Positions 1 to 46,640 of a DNA stretch of 64,000 bases are shown one piece after another. Position 1 is the stretch's first letter, and the number at the start of each line of letters is the position of its first letter. The translations under genes were made by a program, and so were the position numbers. The notes below the pieces were generated by a model. That model was given only the letters and a program-made list of their open reading frames with translations, did no database searches and had not been told where the DNA came from. This stretch comes from Caldithrix abyssi DSM 13497 (lineage in GTDB: Bacteria; Calditrichota; Calditrichia; Calditrichales; Calditrichaceae). Location of the stretch: the NCBI RefSeq assembly GCF_001886815.1, contig NZ_CP018099.1, positions 4,772,501 through 4,836,500 of the forward strand. The letters run 5' to 3'.

Positions 1-711
1 CGCATCAAAGACCGCAATCAACAGAGCGTATTTGAATTAAAGGCCGCTGGCAGCGCTTTCTTTAAAGAAAAAAAGATTTCGGCCATTCCCGTATTTGTCA
101 TTGCTTTGCACGCGACCATTAAACAATTTACCGGCAGGCACCCCAACATCCACCAGTTTGTTTCGCTTTCGCACTATCGCTGCATGGATCTGACCACTGT
201 CAATGTCAGCACCGCACAGGTGAAAGCATTTGTGGAGCAATTCAACAACCGTCAGCATTTTTCACCCGCACTTTACGCAAAATTGATGGACGCGGTACGA
301 TCTCAAAAGGAGATCATCGCCCGTCGGCGCCAATATCTCTCTTTTGCCGACATCCTGACTCTCTTCTTTTTAAACGCTTCTCCCATCAAAAGAAGCGGGG
401 CGCGGGTTCTGATTCTCTTTGCCCTGCGCTTACTAAAAAGTTTGCATTTACTTACGCTCGAAAAGCGCGAAGTGTTAATCTCCCATCCGGCCCTGCACCC
501 GGAAGTTCCGCTTGTGGGCAGGCCCGGCATCCGGCTGCCCTACGTAAAATACCTTGGCCTGCATTACCAGATATGGCCAGAGAAGATTGTAATCACTTAC
601 ATGCCGGCCATTCACTGGTCTGTAAGTAATGAAATCTTTACTCAAAAACTCGAAGCAAACCTGAGGCGCCTTAAAGAGTTGATCGCTTCTGCTACGCAAT
701 TTTCATCCTGA
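1..711 (+). CDS. C-terminal part of an unrecognised protein (5' end outside window)
   Basis: The reading frame is open from base 1 and ends at TGA 709-711, giving the last 236 residues; an internal ATG at 181 is not needed because the frame continues upstream. I do not recognise the family. What can be seen: a short helical N-terminal part, a hydrophobic stretch around residues 115-145 that could be one amphipathic or membrane-associated segment, then a mixed part rich in His, Tyr and Pro and a charged helical C-terminus. No clear catalytic motif is visible. The next gene starts 77 bp downstream on the same strand, so co-transcription with the ABC exporter is possible but unproven. Confidence 0.7.
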   Translation, partial: RIKDRNQQSVFELKAAGSAFFKEKKISAIPVFVIALHATIKQFTGRHPNIHQFVSLSHYRCMDLTTVNVSTAQVKAFVEQFNNRQHFSPALYAKLMDAVRSQKEIIARRRQYLSFADILTLFFLNASPIKRSGARVLILFALRLLKSLHLLTLEKREVLISHPALHPEVPLVGRPGIRLPYVKYLGLHYQIWPEKIVITYMPAIHWSVSNEIFTQKLEANLRRLKELIASATQFSS

Positions 712-41078: not shown

Positions 41079-41107
41079 AATATAATAACATTTTTCATCC
41101 ATTTCAA
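41079..41107 (-). promoter_or_regulatory. Candidate sigma-70-type promoter of tRNA-Asp
   Basis: On the minus strand -35 TTGAAA (41107-41102), a 17-bp spacer and -10 TATATT (41084-41079). The inferred start lies ~25 nt before the tRNA 5' end. Confidence 0.65.
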
Positions 41108-41266
41108 ATGATTTTTTTGTCTATCATTTTTTTTCTGTAAATCACAGAAAAATTTTACCTTATCTTTCTATTGTTCTCTTCTTGACAATGATCTGATGTT
41201 TATCTAAATTGATTAAGTCTTTGTTAAGTAATTAAAATTTTTAATCTTAGTTAAAACTAAAGGCCT

Positions 41267-41872
41267 ATGGATCGTTACAAAGTTCCTGCCCATGAAGCTG
41301 TCGGCAAACTGACCGTTAAGGGCTCAAAATTCATTAGCCACATTTTCCCCGTTTCCAGCAAGGAAGAAGCTGAATCCAGGTACGAAGCAATAAAAAAGCG
41401 TTACTACGACGCCACGCACAATTGCTTTGCCTATCGCATTGACGCGCAAACCTACCGTTATTCTGACGACGGAGAACCATCGGGCACAGCCGGCCGTCCC
41501 ATTTTTCAGGTTCTGGAAGGCAGCGAACTTTTTGAAGCGCTTTGCGTGGTTACCAGATATTTTGGCGGAACCAAGCTTGGAACCGGCGGTTTAATTCGCG
41601 CCTACAGCGAAGCGGCCAAAGAAGCCTTAAAACAACTCAAAATCAAAGAAAAAATACGAACCAGAATCGTTGAACTAAAAATCGACTACGCGAACGAACA
41701 ACATGTTTACCGCCTGCTGAGTCAGTTTGAAGGCAAAACGCTTCAATCCGATTATTCTAACGGCGTTTCCATTCAGGTCGAATTACCCTGGAGCGCAGCC
41801 GAATCCTTTTTAAATAAGTTAACAGATTTAACACACGGGCAGTATGAGTTAATTAAAATTTCGGGCAATTAA
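41267..41872 (+). CDS. yigZ: YigZ/IMPACT-family protein
   Basis: A 201-residue two-domain protein. The N-terminal IMPACT/UPF0029 domain (~15-125) contains 'GSKFISHIFPV', 'ATHNCFAYRI', 'SDDGEPSGTAGRP' and 'VVTRYFGGTKLGTGGLIRAYSEA', the family signature; a DUF1949-like C-terminal domain follows. Bacterial YigZ has been linked to translation-related functions, but its reaction is not established. It is 1 bp from the start of the ABC exporter operon, so it is probably co-transcribed. Confidence 0.93.
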   Translation: MDRYKVPAHEAVGKLTVKGSKFISHIFPVSSKEEAESRYEAIKKRYYDATHNCFAYRIDAQTYRYSDDGEPSGTAGRPIFQVLEGSELFEALCVVTRYFGGTKLGTGGLIRAYSEAAKEALKQLKIKEKIRTRIVELKIDYANEQHVYRLLSQFEGKTLQSDYSNGVSIQVELPWSAAESFLNKLTDLTHGQYELIKISGN

Positions 41873-41873
41873 T

Positions 41874-42794
41874 ATGGAACAAAACATTTTAGAAGTTCAG
41901 AAGATCAGCAAAAGTTTTAAAGATCATGTGGTTTTGAAGGATTTAAGTTTTACCGTGCGCGGCGGCGAAACCTTCGGCCTGTTAGGGCCTAACGGCGCCG
42001 GTAAAACAACCACCATGCGCATGATCATGAATATTCTGCAGCCGGACGAGGGCGAAATTCTATTCAACGGCATCAAGCGCCAGCGCTTAAAAGGCGTTCA
42101 TTTTGGTTATTTGCCGGAAGAGCGCGGCCTGTATCCCCGGGCCAAAGTGCTGGACGTGCTGGTTTACTTTGGCACATTAAACAATCTCACCATGCGCAAG
42201 GCAGAAGTCGAAGCCATTCGCTATCTCGATCGTCTGGGCATTGTGGAATACACCGATGCGCACATCAACGAACTTTCCAAAGGAATTCAACAAAAAATCC
42301 AGTTCATCGCCGCCTTTTTGCACGACCCGGATGTTTTGATTTTAGACGAACCTTTTACCGGGCTCGACCCAATCAACCAGACGGTTCTTTATGAGATACT
42401 CGAAGAGTTCAGGCGTAAAAACAAAATCCTGATTCTCTCCACACACCTGATGGATCAGGCCGAAAAGCTTTGCGACCATATTTGCCTGATTAATCAGGCG
42501 CAGGTGGTAATCGACGGTTCCATTGAAAGTATCCGAAAGCGATTCAGGGAAGACGCTTATTTTATCGAAGCCGACGCCCCTATCCCCATTCTGAGCGAAA
42601 TGGAGGGCATTCAAATTATTGAAGAGGGGAAAAACAGCTACAAATTCATTCTGGAAAATAACACGTTAAAGCTTTCTGAGATCATGAAGCGGATCGAGCA
42701 AAAGGCAAGAATTTTACGTTTCGAAGTTTTTGAGCCTTCTTTACACGATATTTTCATTCGTTTAATTCAGGAACAGGCAGAGGTTTTAAAATGA
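41874..42794 (+). CDS. natA: ABC exporter ATPase (NatA-type)
   Basis: A 306-residue ATPase. Walker A 'GPNGAGKTT' (~40-48), signature 'LSKGIQQKIQ' (NatA/YhaQ variant of LSGGQ), Walker B 'VLILDEPFTGLDP' and H-loop 'STHLM' are all present. A ~90-residue C-terminal domain ('IQIIEEGKNSYKFILENN...HDIFIRLI') is typical of NatA-like proteins. The stop overlaps natB by 4 bp. It powers the NatB-like permease; sodium extrusion is the named role of the family in Bacillus, but substrate here is unknown. Confidence 0.92.
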   Translation: MEQNILEVQKISKSFKDHVVLKDLSFTVRGGETFGLLGPNGAGKTTTMRMIMNILQPDEGEILFNGIKRQRLKGVHFGYLPEERGLYPRAKVLDVLVYFGTLNNLTMRKAEVEAIRYLDRLGIVEYTDAHINELSKGIQQKIQFIAAFLHDPDVLILDEPFTGLDPINQTVLYEILEEFRRKNKILILSTHLMDQAEKLCDHICLINQAQVVIDGSIESIRKRFREDAYFIEADAPIPILSEMEGIQIIEEGKNSYKFILENNTLKLSEIMKRIEQKARILRFEVFEPSLHDIFIRLIQEQAEVLK

Positions 42795-44293
42795 AAAATA
42801 TGTTTAGAATTGCCCGCTGGGAATTCATGACGCGCATCAAATCGCGTTCTTTTTTGTTCAACACATTCGTTTCGCCCTTTTTGTTTGCGGCGGTTATTAC
42901 GCTTCCCCTGTTTATTTTTAGTTTGCAGCCACAAATTACCACAAAGTTGATTGGTTTAATCGATCTTTCTGGCCAAAACATCAAAGAAGAACTCCAGCGG
43001 GAGTTGAGCCGCAGCTATCGCCTGGATAACCAATCCTCAGAATATCTGGTGATGAATGTGGCGGTTGGCAATTCCCAGCCTTACAAGCAAATGCTTTCCA
43101 AATACGAAGAGATCAAAGCCCGGCTCGATTCCATTTCGCAGGTTTACGAACAGATTAAAGCCGAGCGCATGCAATATTACAAGAACACGCGCATCCCCAA
43201 CCGCGATTACGTTTTGAGAACTTCGTACGAAAAACTGCAGAACACGCGTGAAGAAAAAGAATTGATCGAAATTGAACTCTCCCGCTTTAAATCGGCCATG
43301 GATTCTCTGTACAAGCGCGAAGCATTAAAAACAGCCGACTCCTTATTGCACATGGATGTTTTAAACGCCTACCTGGTTTTTGGGCCGGATTTTGCCAAAA
43401 GCGGGGTGGTGGAATACCATACCAAAACCCCGGGCGATTTGAAAGAGATCGATCGCTTTGAAAAAATCTTACAAACCATCATTATTAAAAAGCGCATTTT
43501 AAACGATCAGATCCCCCGCAGTAAAATACGACGCTGGTTCCGACCGATTTACATGAAAAAATATCAGCTTTTACCGGAGGGACAGCAGGAGTGGAATTTT
43601 TACGTTCAATTTTACGGGCCGCTGATCGGCGTGTTCCTGTTGTTTATGGCCATCTTTACCGCCGGAGGCTACGTATTTAGCAGCGTTTTGTTAGAGAAAT
43701 CGAATCGTGTGATCGAAATACTGCTTTCTTACGTGTCCAGCAGTCAGTTAATGGGCGGCAAGATTTTCGGGCTGGGCCTGCTGGGACTTGTGCAAATATT
43801 AAGCTGGTTTGTCATTACGCTTATTTTTATGTCGGCCGGTATTATCCCTGCGGATAAAATCGCTTATCTCAACTGGCAAAACGCCTTTTACTTTTTAACT
43901 TACTTTAGTCTTGGCTTTTTGTTTTACGGCTCCATTTTTGTAACCATTGGATCGGTTTCAGCCAGTGAATACGATGCACAGCAGATCAATCAGCTGCTGC
44001 GCACCGTCGCTATCTTCCCGGTTCTCTTATCGTTGCTGGTATTGGCCGACCCCAATGCGCCATTGATTCGCATTTTGAGTTTTATCCCATTTTTAACGCC
44101 GTCTTTCATGATCATGCGCATTCCGCTTTCCACCACGCCCATCATGTTTGATATTTACGGCACCATTATTTTAATGATTGTTTCCATTGTGGCTATGGTC
44201 TTTATTTCCGGACGCATCTTTCGCATGTCCACTTTGATGGTCGGGAAAAAACCCACGCCTCAGGAAATCTGGAACTGGATTAAAGTCTGGTAA
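42791..44293 (+). CDS. natB: ABC-2 type permease (NatB-type)
   Basis: A 500-residue permease. One helix near the N-terminus (~25-45) is followed by a long extracytoplasmic domain (~60-265) rich in charged helices that may form a coiled coil ('KQMLSKYEEIKARLDSISQV'), then five or six helices from ~270 with 'SSVLLEKSNRVIEILLSYVSS', the ABC-2 signature. It partners the preceding ATPase. The large outer domain is a general trait of the ABC2_membrane_3 group. Confidence 0.9.
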   Translation: MKNMFRIARWEFMTRIKSRSFLFNTFVSPFLFAAVITLPLFIFSLQPQITTKLIGLIDLSGQNIKEELQRELSRSYRLDNQSSEYLVMNVAVGNSQPYKQMLSKYEEIKARLDSISQVYEQIKAERMQYYKNTRIPNRDYVLRTSYEKLQNTREEKELIEIELSRFKSAMDSLYKREALKTADSLLHMDVLNAYLVFGPDFAKSGVVEYHTKTPGDLKEIDRFEKILQTIIIKKRILNDQIPRSKIRRWFRPIYMKKYQLLPEGQQEWNFYVQFYGPLIGVFLLFMAIFTAGGYVFSSVLLEKSNRVIEILLSYVSSSQLMGGKIFGLGLLGLVQILSWFVITLIFMSAGIIPADKIAYLNWQNAFYFLTYFSLGFLFYGSIFVTIGSVSASEYDAQQINQLLRTVAIFPVLLSLLVLADPNAPLIRILSFIPFLTPSFMIMRIPLSTTPIMFDIYGTIILMIVSIVAMVFISGRIFRMSTLMVGKKPTPQEIWNWIKVW

Positions 44294-44309
44294 AAAAGAA
44301 AGGAATTGC

Positions 44310-44684
44310 ATGCGTTTTTGCACCGTCATTAATTGTATGGATGGAAGAGTTCAACTACCCGTTATCCAATATTTGCAAAACCGATTTAATTGTGAATATG
44401 TGGATGTGATCTCTGAGCCCGGCCCCAATCGTATTTTAGCCGAACAGACCGATTCGACGTTAATTGCCTCTATTTTGTCGCGTTTAACGATTTCTGTGGA
44501 TAAGCACCAATCCAGGCAAATCGCCGTTGTGGGCCATCACGACTGTGCTGGCAACCCCGTTTCAAAAGAGACGCAACTCGAACATCTGCACAAAGCGGTG
44601 CAGTTTATTGCCCGGCGCTATCCTGAGCACACGGTCATCGGATTGTGGGTTGACGAAAACTGGCGCGTGGAAGAGGTGTGTTAA
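44310..44684 (+). CDS. Miniature beta-carbonic-anhydrase-like protein
   Basis: A 124-residue protein, about half the size of a beta-carbonic anhydrase, yet it keeps the zinc-site pattern: 'CMDGR' (C9, D11, R13; family CxDxR) and 'GHHDCAGN' (H76, C79; family HxxC). The Rossmann-like order strand-C, strand-H..C also matches. The bicarbonate-handling parts between and after these motifs are shortened, so either a minimal anhydrase or another zinc enzyme is possible. RBS AAGGAA; it starts 17 bp after natB and ends at a terminator hairpin, so it may be the last gene of the yigZ-natA-natB-orf unit. Confidence 0.72.
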   Translation: MRFCTVINCMDGRVQLPVIQYLQNRFNCEYVDVISEPGPNRILAEQTDSTLIASILSRLTISVDKHQSRQIAVVGHHDCAGNPVSKETQLEHLHKAVQFIARRYPEHTVIGLWVDENWRVEEVC

Positions 44685-44698
44685 TCAACACGCTTTTT
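44676..44698 (+). terminator. Intrinsic terminator overlapping a stop codon
   Basis: GTGTGTT (44676-44682) / AACACGC (44687-44693), one G-T pair, loop AATC, followed by five T and ATTT. The hairpin includes the stop codon of the small carbonic-anhydrase-like gene (44682-44684). Confidence 0.65.
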
Positions 44699-44702
44699 AT
44701 TT

Positions 44703-46640
44703 CTAAAGATTTATCATCAACTGCAGGCGAAACAAACGATCTGTTTTCGTTTGCTGGCGGCCGTAATCGATGTCTGTTAACACGGGGTCGTTGAGCCTTA
44801 AATAACGAAACTTAAACCAGACCCCCAGCCGCGGTAAAGGGCGCCACCCCAAACGCACATACCACTTAAAACCCTGGCCGTACATGGGAAAATTGGCGAA
44901 GCTGCCCGGCACATCGCTTTCGTACTCGTAAATTCTGGTACGATAAGAAGGGGTTCTGAAAAAAGTAACCCGCCCCACCAGCGACAGGCGCCGTCTGAAG
45001 TTCCACCTCAATTCCTGAAAGCTCAGCGCCCCCTTTTCTGCAGGATGGTTTAGCCAGGCCAGCTCCAGACGCGTGGTAGATTCCAGTCGCTTTTCAATCG
45101 GAATTTTTAACTGCAAACGAAGACCGCGTACCCTCTGCCGGGCGATGGTAGAAGCTTCAGGGGCTGCATCCGTGCTTCTTTCCCGCCAGCGCACCTCAAG
45201 CTGCCCACTGCGAAAAACGTAATTCAGGTTTAGCAGCCATTCATCCTTCAAAGGGGGGAACTGCTGGCGATACGTTCGCCATAAATTTTGAACCAGCATC
45301 TTGTAAAAATCAATGCGCAAGCGATCGTTTTGCCAGGTAAGAGCAAAGTAAATTCCGCGAACGGCCTGCGGGAAGGGACTATTCCAATCAAAAACTCGAC
45401 CGTAAGGCGATTGAAAATTTGGCGTCAGATTCCAGAACATGACGCCGCTCCGAAAGGTTTCATCTTCTAACCAGACGCTTTGCGTAATACCTGTTCCGCC
45501 GTTTTTGCCGGCCGCCAGCTCTCCGGCCAGACGTAAAGCGGCAATGCGGAAATCATAAGCCATGCTGCCCAGTAAAATTTGGTTGCCGCTAAAATGATAA
45601 AAATCCTTTCTTAATTCACTAAACGTAACGTTCCGCGCGTTAAATTCAATGGCCGGGCTATAATCAATACTGGCTGCCGACAGAGTTAAACCGCCATTTT
45701 TTCCAATGGTACGTTTAAAAGAAAATCCGGCTACCTTTTCCATAATTAAATCTTTTCTGGATTCTTCCAGAGCAGTCCTGTGGTAACCGCTAAAATCGAA
45801 GCCCGTAATTTTTTTAGTTTGTGGATTGTACCGCGCATCCCGCAGGTTTGTGCTCCAGAAAAGAGCCAGTTCCGTTCCATGAAAGGGCTGCCCTGTAAAA
45901 CACACCCCCGTTTGCGCAAAATTTTCGCTCGCCCCCAGATAGGTTCGCGCCACGATTTTGTTCGCCTGGAAGGGCAACATGGCCATACTGCTTTTCATCC
46001 TCCCAAAGGGCGATGAAAACAACAGGCCCTGTGCCAGCTGCAAATAAAAACTTCCAAAGATTAACCGCCCCTTCTTAAAATTGACGGCAAGCATGGCGTT
46101 CCAGTAGTCGTTGTATTGACGTTCTCCCACGTCTTTTTGTAAAACCAGACCGGCTTTCCAGGGATATCTGCCGCTTGTGCCTCGATACTGTAAGCGGGTA
46201 AGATTGTAAATCCCGCTTCCTAAAAATTTTTCGTTTTCTCCTTCTGCTGGTGTTTGCACATTCCAGTAATTGCGCTGAACTACCTGCAAAGATTTTTTCT
46301 TTGGAGCGCGTAAGATCAGAAAAGGTCGGATTCTTTTAAATTTTTCCTTTCCGATGATTTTAGCGATCTGGCGCACAGAACGAAATGCCCCCTGCCTGCT
46401 TTGGCGAGTTAGGATGCTGTCGATGTCTTCGGAAGTTAACAGAGGAATGCGCTGCCAGTCCTGCCTTTCGGCCTGATTGACGGCAACGGGGTTCTCCAGC
46501 AAATCCGCCAGCGCTTCGGCGATGGCCGGGTCTTCTTTAATCAAATCGAGCCAGGGTTCCAGCGCATCCGCCTGCTGGGCAAAGGAAAAAGAAAATCCCC
46601 CAAAAACCAAAAACAGCCAGAGCGGAAATATTTTAATCAT
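44703..46640 (-). CDS. Outer-membrane barrel protein with N-terminal helix-hairpin-helix region
   Basis: A 645-residue protein with signal peptide (KIFPLWLFLVFGGFSFSFAQQ). Residues ~25-110 resemble tandem helix-hairpin-helix modules of the ComEA/Tex type ('IPLLTSEDIDSILTRQSRQGAFRSVRQIAKIIG'). The remaining ~530 residues alternate polar and aromatic residues in strand-length segments ('WKAGLVLQKDVGERQYNDYWNA', 'LRIDFYKMLVQNLW') and end in '..FRLQLMINL', as expected for a beta-barrel. Such HhH-barrel proteins are known as uncharacterised in Bacteroidota. DNA contact at the cell surface or in the periplasm (uptake) is a guess. It converges on the small CA-like gene. Confidence 0.75.
   Translation of the reverse strand: MIKIFPLWLFLVFGGFSFSFAQQADALEPWLDLIKEDPAIAEALADLLENPVAVNQAERQDWQRIPLLTSEDIDSILTRQSRQGAFRSVRQIAKIIGKEKFKRIRPFLILRAPKKKSLQVVQRNYWNVQTPAEGENEKFLGSGIYNLTRLQYRGTSGRYPWKAGLVLQKDVGERQYNDYWNAMLAVNFKKGRLIFGSFYLQLAQGLLFSSPFGRMKSSMAMLPFQANKIVARTYLGASENFAQTGVCFTGQPFHGTELALFWSTNLRDARYNPQTKKITGFDFSGYHRTALEESRKDLIMEKVAGFSFKRTIGKNGGLTLSAASIDYSPAIEFNARNVTFSELRKDFYHFSGNQILLGSMAYDFRIAALRLAGELAAGKNGGTGITQSVWLEDETFRSGVMFWNLTPNFQSPYGRVFDWNSPFPQAVRGIYFALTWQNDRLRIDFYKMLVQNLWRTYRQQFPPLKDEWLLNLNYVFRSGQLEVRWRERSTDAAPEASTIARQRVRGLRLQLKIPIEKRLESTTRLELAWLNHPAEKGALSFQELRWNFRRRLSLVGRVTFFRTPSYRTRIYEYESDVPGSFANFPMYGQGFKWYVRLGWRPLPRLGVWFKFRYLRLNDPVLTDIDYGRQQTKTDRLFRLQLMINL

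Follow-up and report, generated by a model that had tools for sequence, protein, structure and literature searches.

The window analysed here (64,000 nucleotides of Caldithrix abyssi DSM 13497, contig NZ_CP018099.1, positions 4,772,501 to 4,836,500 of the forward strand) encodes a real and well-conserved small relative of the beta-carbonic anhydrases (beta-CAs), which is probably a cytosolic carbonic anhydrase (CA). The protein is a member of Pfam family PF20393, a widespread family that hardly ever shares a genome with canonical beta-CAs (PF00484), and its predicted model has the beta-CA fold at 124 residues.

A complete PF20393 protein

The open reading frame begins with an ATG, has an AGGA stretch ahead of it, and stands in a same-strand run of genes; the genome is a single contig of 4.98 Mb.

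44310..44684, + strand: PF20393 (Pro_CA_2) protein, a small beta-CA relative of 124 aa (ORF, Pfam, AlphaFold2, VIA-align, alignment A1)
42791..44293, + strand: ABC-2 type permease (ABC2_membrane_3), immediately upstream (ORF, Pfam, tblastn)
41874..42794, + strand: ABC ATPase (DrrA/GldA-like) that pairs with the permease (ORF, Pfam, NCBIfam)
41267..41872, + strand: YigZ/IMPACT family protein, upstream in the same-strand run (ORF, Pfam, NCBIfam)

Sixteen bases separate the last base of the permease gene (44293) from the small ORF, and the two genes are probably co-transcribed. A scan of 41100-44800 found 10 promoter-like sites (5.6 expected) and 5 terminator-like sites (5.5 expected); a 10-of-12 promoter-like site lies at 41182, before YigZ.

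The protein matches PF20393 ("Putative carbonic anhydrase") at E 8.7e-51 and 171.8 bits against a curated cut-off of 30, and the match is near full-length, pairing residues 2-124 with positions 4-125 of the 125-position model. Its score against PF00484 is 23.9 bits, under the curated cut-off of 25.7, and NCBIfam returned no match. Relatives number 74 in genome_contigs, at 42-71% identity; together with the PF20393 match they rule out a chance motif or a fragment. By record titles PF20393 relatives are spread over many phyla, and nearly all are MAGs. They are under purifying selection, with dN/dS of 0.04-0.21 across 10 close pairs of relatives, the window gene being in no pair.

We aligned the window protein with 71 of the 74 relative loci (A1, 72 sequences); the alignment omits L021 (a near copy of L020), L075 and L092 (both partial) and L003-L019, L009 included. 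All 72 members match PF20393, and 15 of them also match PF00484 at E ≤0.001 (best 7.5e-6). Lengths in A1 run from 123 to 153 aa with a median of 126, so that what an earlier note on this DNA described as half the normal size is normal for PF20393. The description holds against the eight canonical beta-CA relatives compared (192-244 aa), but the protein is full-length for its own family: it is a complete PF20393 member and no truncated canonical enzyme.

Zinc motif and predicted fold

The zinc motif that the earlier note had read, CxDxR at C9 followed by HxxC at H76 and C79, is exactly as claimed and in the proper order (C9-M-D11-G-R13 and H76-H-D-C79), and a third conserved segment lies beyond it.

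44334..44348, + strand: C-M-D-G-R, codons 9-13, first predicted zinc Cys and Asp/Arg pair (sequence; A1; aligned to CSDSR of the canonical enzyme L098)
44535..44546, + strand: H-H-D-C, codons 76-79, predicted zinc His and second Cys (A1; aligned to HTQC of L098)
44637..44663, + strand: IGLWVDENW, codons 110-118, family signature, lying in strand 108-114 and the loop beyond (AlphaFold2, A1)

C9, D11, H76 and C79 are kept in all 72 A1 sequences and R13 in 71, so both the Cys, His, Cys ligand order, as judged by sequence and alignment only, and the Asp/Arg pair adjoining the first Cys are present. Other invariant positions are F3, T5, G12, Q15, D32, S62, H66, N82 and L112, with W113 kept in 71 of 72. 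The member with a changed R13 is from Lentisphaerae (L089:4992-5381), with R13 replaced by Ser and D78 by Ala; its near relatives L079, L081 and L083 keep both residues, and all four adjoin the same large gene, which is mfd-like where tested (L083).

Sequence searches for solved relatives were so weak that a comparison of folds was needed: phmmer with the single window protein gave nothing beyond a trypsin match attributable to chance (E 1.5), and a profile of the 72 sequences reached 3las at E 0.095, with weaker matches to 1ddz and two unrelated chains. AlphaFold2, given A1, returned a single-chain model, without zinc, at pLDDT 97.6 and pTM 0.91, having strands at 3-8, 30-35, 70-76, 108-114 and 120-122; C9 directly follows strand 1 and H76 ends strand 3. 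Foldseek listed 50 matches, all of them beta-CAs apart from a COS hydrolase (3vqj), the best being 1g5c (E 3.1e-5, probability 1.00), and the 50 VIA-align rows listed are all beta-CAs or CS2 hydrolase, with Z of 11.1-13.3 (3las at the top) over 108-117 residues. By both comparisons the predicted model has the beta-CA fold, at only 13-24% identity between the listed structures and the window protein.

Ungapped counting from the start of the aligned ranges places C9 at Cys46 of Burkholderia pseudomallei 6yjn (range 38..198) and at Cys35 of Rv1284 1ylk (range 27..162), which are described as the zinc cysteines of those enzymes (PMC7287614 and PMC6834203, respectively). An hhalign comparison with the eight canonical relatives (probability 92.7%) pairs C9, D11, R13, H76 and C79 with C49, D51, R53, H102 and C105. 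The outcome that the earlier note regarded as fatal to its reading, a predicted structure that holds C9, H76 and C79 apart, did not appear: the fold is that of a beta-CA, the strand ends fit and C9 lies on a known zinc Cys, from which we infer the ligand distances. Sequence and model together support the suggestion that a zinc site of the beta-CA type sits on a very compact form of the fold.

Distribution, neighbours and function

Among 385 genomes, 48 carry PF20393 over the cut-off, 39 of them at no less than 100 bits, and 122 match PF00484, 120 over its cut-off. Not one of the 39 strong PF20393 genomes has PF00484 over the cut-off, where 12.2 would be expected (P(0) 1.8e-7 if genomes are independent); this and the other exclusion P values are guides, since genomes are related and lifestyle is uncontrolled. 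The 39 include G138, whose PF00484 match (E 5.5e-4) is presumably one of the two below the cut-off; they exclude nine genomes whose PF20393 matches are weaker (31-75 bits), two of which (G230 and G311) also have a canonical beta-CA. Eight of the nine weak matches were fetched (L103-L110; the ninth, G077, was left out), and each has a CxDxR and HxxC frame of 129-187 aa lacking GLWVDENW, only frames with that pattern having been listed. One of them, L105, from G230, has a signal-like N-terminus by eye. Below the cut-off, the PF20393 matches in G076, G091 and G221 fall on canonical beta-CA proteins.

The same separation is seen within groups. Among the 40 genomes of the window's phylum, PF20393 is present in 18 and PF00484 in 10, with both in none; the phylum of G275 (seven genomes) has PF20393 in two, PF00484 in four and both in none; and the three genomes of the phylum of G356 (G079, G224 and G356) are not among the 122 that match PF00484. 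All 40 genomes of the window's phylum lie within the 385, as do G137 and G275 of the seven, and G079, G224 and G356. Families f1, f5 and f104 are those with both kinds of protein, never in one genome (stratified product P 0.0038); f2, f3, f4 and f6 have one kind each, so give no test of exclusion. A profile search of the C. abyssi genome itself found no PF00484 match. The exclusion could partly reflect lifestyle or the relatedness of genomes; many anaerobes may need no CA.

An alpha-class CA is present in five of the 40 genomes of the phylum, all five of which carry PF20393 (P 0.013), although one of the five is a fragment at 27.6 bits. This fits a compatibility of the two classes in separate compartments, with the alpha-CA outside the cytoplasm and the PF20393 protein inside. 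The alpha-class CA of the window's genome (L102; G000:C1:1237479-1238114) has a lipoprotein-like leader by eye.

We consider it probable that the window protein is a minimal, cytosolic, zinc-dependent CA that replaces a canonical beta-CA; its activity is predicted. Strand 1 starts at residue 3, and there is thus no room for a signal peptide. In the mechanism that we propose, Zn(II) would be coordinated by C9, H76 and C79 where strands 1 and 3 reach their C-terminal ends; D11, kept in place by R13, would orient the zinc-bound hydroxide, which would attack CO2 to give bicarbonate; and the protein would form a dimer or larger assembly that closes the active site, lacking the N-terminal arm that known beta-CAs have. 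Zinc binding, catalysis and oligomeric state are what we infer for the window protein from its relatives and model.

The beta-CA zinc chemistry could instead hydrolyse another small substrate, such as COS or CS2. In the comparisons with the predicted model, fold alone does not separate CS2/COS hydrolases from CAs; VIA-align scores for the CS2 hydrolase entries 3ten (Z 13.0) and 3teo (Z 12.7) equal those of the top CAs, 3vqj is in the Foldseek list, and the record titles of many relatives name Deltaproteobacteria or Desulfo- groups. We nonetheless regard such a substrate as unlikely, because the mutual exclusion points to a protein that has taken over from the canonical beta-CA, something not required of a COS or CS2 hydrolase, and no sulfur-metabolism gene stood out by eye in the neighbour clusters that recur across 73 loci, most neighbours being unannotated. 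A zinc binder that is no enzyme, serving as a bicarbonate or CO2 sensor or persisting as a structural remnant, might explain why some canonical-invariant residues are absent and why L089 does without R13 and D78. It too seems doubtful, given the near-complete conservation of D11 and R13, the purifying selection among relatives and the exclusion with an enzyme; as to a sensor, 124 residues leave no room for an output domain.

From its place at the end of an exporter operon, the earlier note had also drawn a link with ion or pH balance. The positional part stands, the permease gene being the adjacent one on the same strand, and the permease adjoins the copy in a congener (L019) as well; but that the window protein acts together with the NatAB-type exporter to balance ions or pH is very improbable, as the adjacency was seen only within the genus. 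With tblastn at E 1e-5, a NatB permease relative was found in one of 91 PF20393 loci, that of the congener (91.6% identical), and YigZ in none of the 91, many of these loci having short flanks; the ATPase gave seven hits over the 91 loci at 22-31% identity, as expected for any ABC ATPase, and neighbours differ elsewhere. Nothing points to a shared function of permease and PF20393 protein despite their adjacency. The reading frame of the congener copy (L019:317-700) is not open near the N-terminus, from assembly error or decay.

A survey of neighbours in 73 loci, using a mechanical gene caller and with L092 and L009 left out, found no recurring cluster in more than nine loci, most neighbours being without annotation; the largest was generic two-component or PAS-type by eye. 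The commonest specific neighbour was an MFS carrier at +1 or -1, in six loci, which represent fewer than six independent cases since L085-L087 are near copies.

L074:944-2134, MFS carrier beside the PF20393 gene (neighbour survey, as are the next five)
L085:1925-3163, MFS carrier beside the PF20393 gene
L086:5456-6694, MFS carrier beside the PF20393 gene
L087:5456-6694, MFS carrier beside the PF20393 gene
L088:1-909, MFS carrier beside the PF20393 gene
L090:3662-4909, MFS carrier beside the PF20393 gene

In the three tested (L074, L086 and L090) the carrier is of the SfMCT L-lactate family, and three of the six loci have an acetate-CoA ligase upstream, the ligase family having been tested on L086 only. 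The MFS-flanked loci come from Tissierellales, Desulfotomaculum/Peptococcaceae-type Firmicutes, Chloroflexi and a delta MAG.

Returning to a cytosolic CA as the preferred function, a broader proposal is that PF20393 forms a separate, minimal class of beta-type CAs of about 124 residues that has repeatedly taken the place of the usual cytosolic enzyme, in bacterial phyla that are mostly uncultured. Lacking the N-terminal arm, such enzymes would form a different dimer or might even be active as monomers. We advance this only tentatively, as a possibility somewhat short of an even chance; if true, it would show how little of the fold CO2 hydration needs. If active, the window protein would fall well below Rv1284, at 163 aa the shortest known beta-CA met in the sources used (PMC6834203), and would offer a natural minimal scaffold. 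Because canonical beta-CA and PF20393 exclude each other, the "putative" family gains a testable function, and surveys that rely on PF00484 only may call PF20393 bacteria beta-CA-free (39 of 385 genomes here).

Comparison with known beta-class enzymes

PF20393 is already a named Pfam family; a literature search, judged in part by title, found no report of its activity, and a CA survey that lists Caldithrix abyssi does not mention the window protein in the passages available (PMC10295459). The window protein is an ordinary member of that family, from which we see no difference, the family's own function being only putative. What we add is a comparison at the level of fold, an account of the missing parts, the mutual exclusion of PF20393 and canonical beta-CA, and the finding that a natAB link does not reach beyond the genus.

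The short beta-CAs Cab (1g5c), Rv1284 (1ylk) and the Streptococcus mutans enzyme (3las) have the same fold (Z 12.4-13.3), zinc ligands and Asp/Arg pair at 20-24% identity, and the S. mutans enzyme shares the CMDxR wording of the motif; their chains are 155-169 residues long, and the first 23-29 of these, as well as later segments, have no equivalent in the window protein. The carbon disulfide hydrolase 3ten likewise shares the fold, with Z 13.0 across 110 residues, in a chain of 201 residues, compared with 124 aa.

Canonical PF00484 enzymes (Escherichia coli 1i6o, 6yjn and L098) have their C, D, R, H and C in the same order, pairing with those of the window protein. The fold of 1i6o matches at Z 11.3 over 113 residues, with window residues 1..124 corresponding to 1i6o 34..192; the model thus begins at E. 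coli residue 34, and the canonical N-terminal arm is absent, as is much of the canonical C-terminal half. Relative to 6yjn, whose zinc ligands are given as Cys46, His102 and Cys105 (PMC7287614), the window protein is 11 residues longer between the first Cys and the His but 48 shorter beyond the second Cys (6yjn aligned end 198). Q40, P42 and R71 of RxAGN (L098 numbering) are invariant in the eight canonical relatives and have no clear counterpart in the window protein. The conserved residues ahead of strand 1 (Q40 and P42) are missing together with the arm; RxAGN seems to be replaced by EPGPN, by eye, at a point where hhalign is gapped. Known beta-CAs are described as active as dimers or tetramers with the site at the dimer interface (PMC5746736, PMC7287614).
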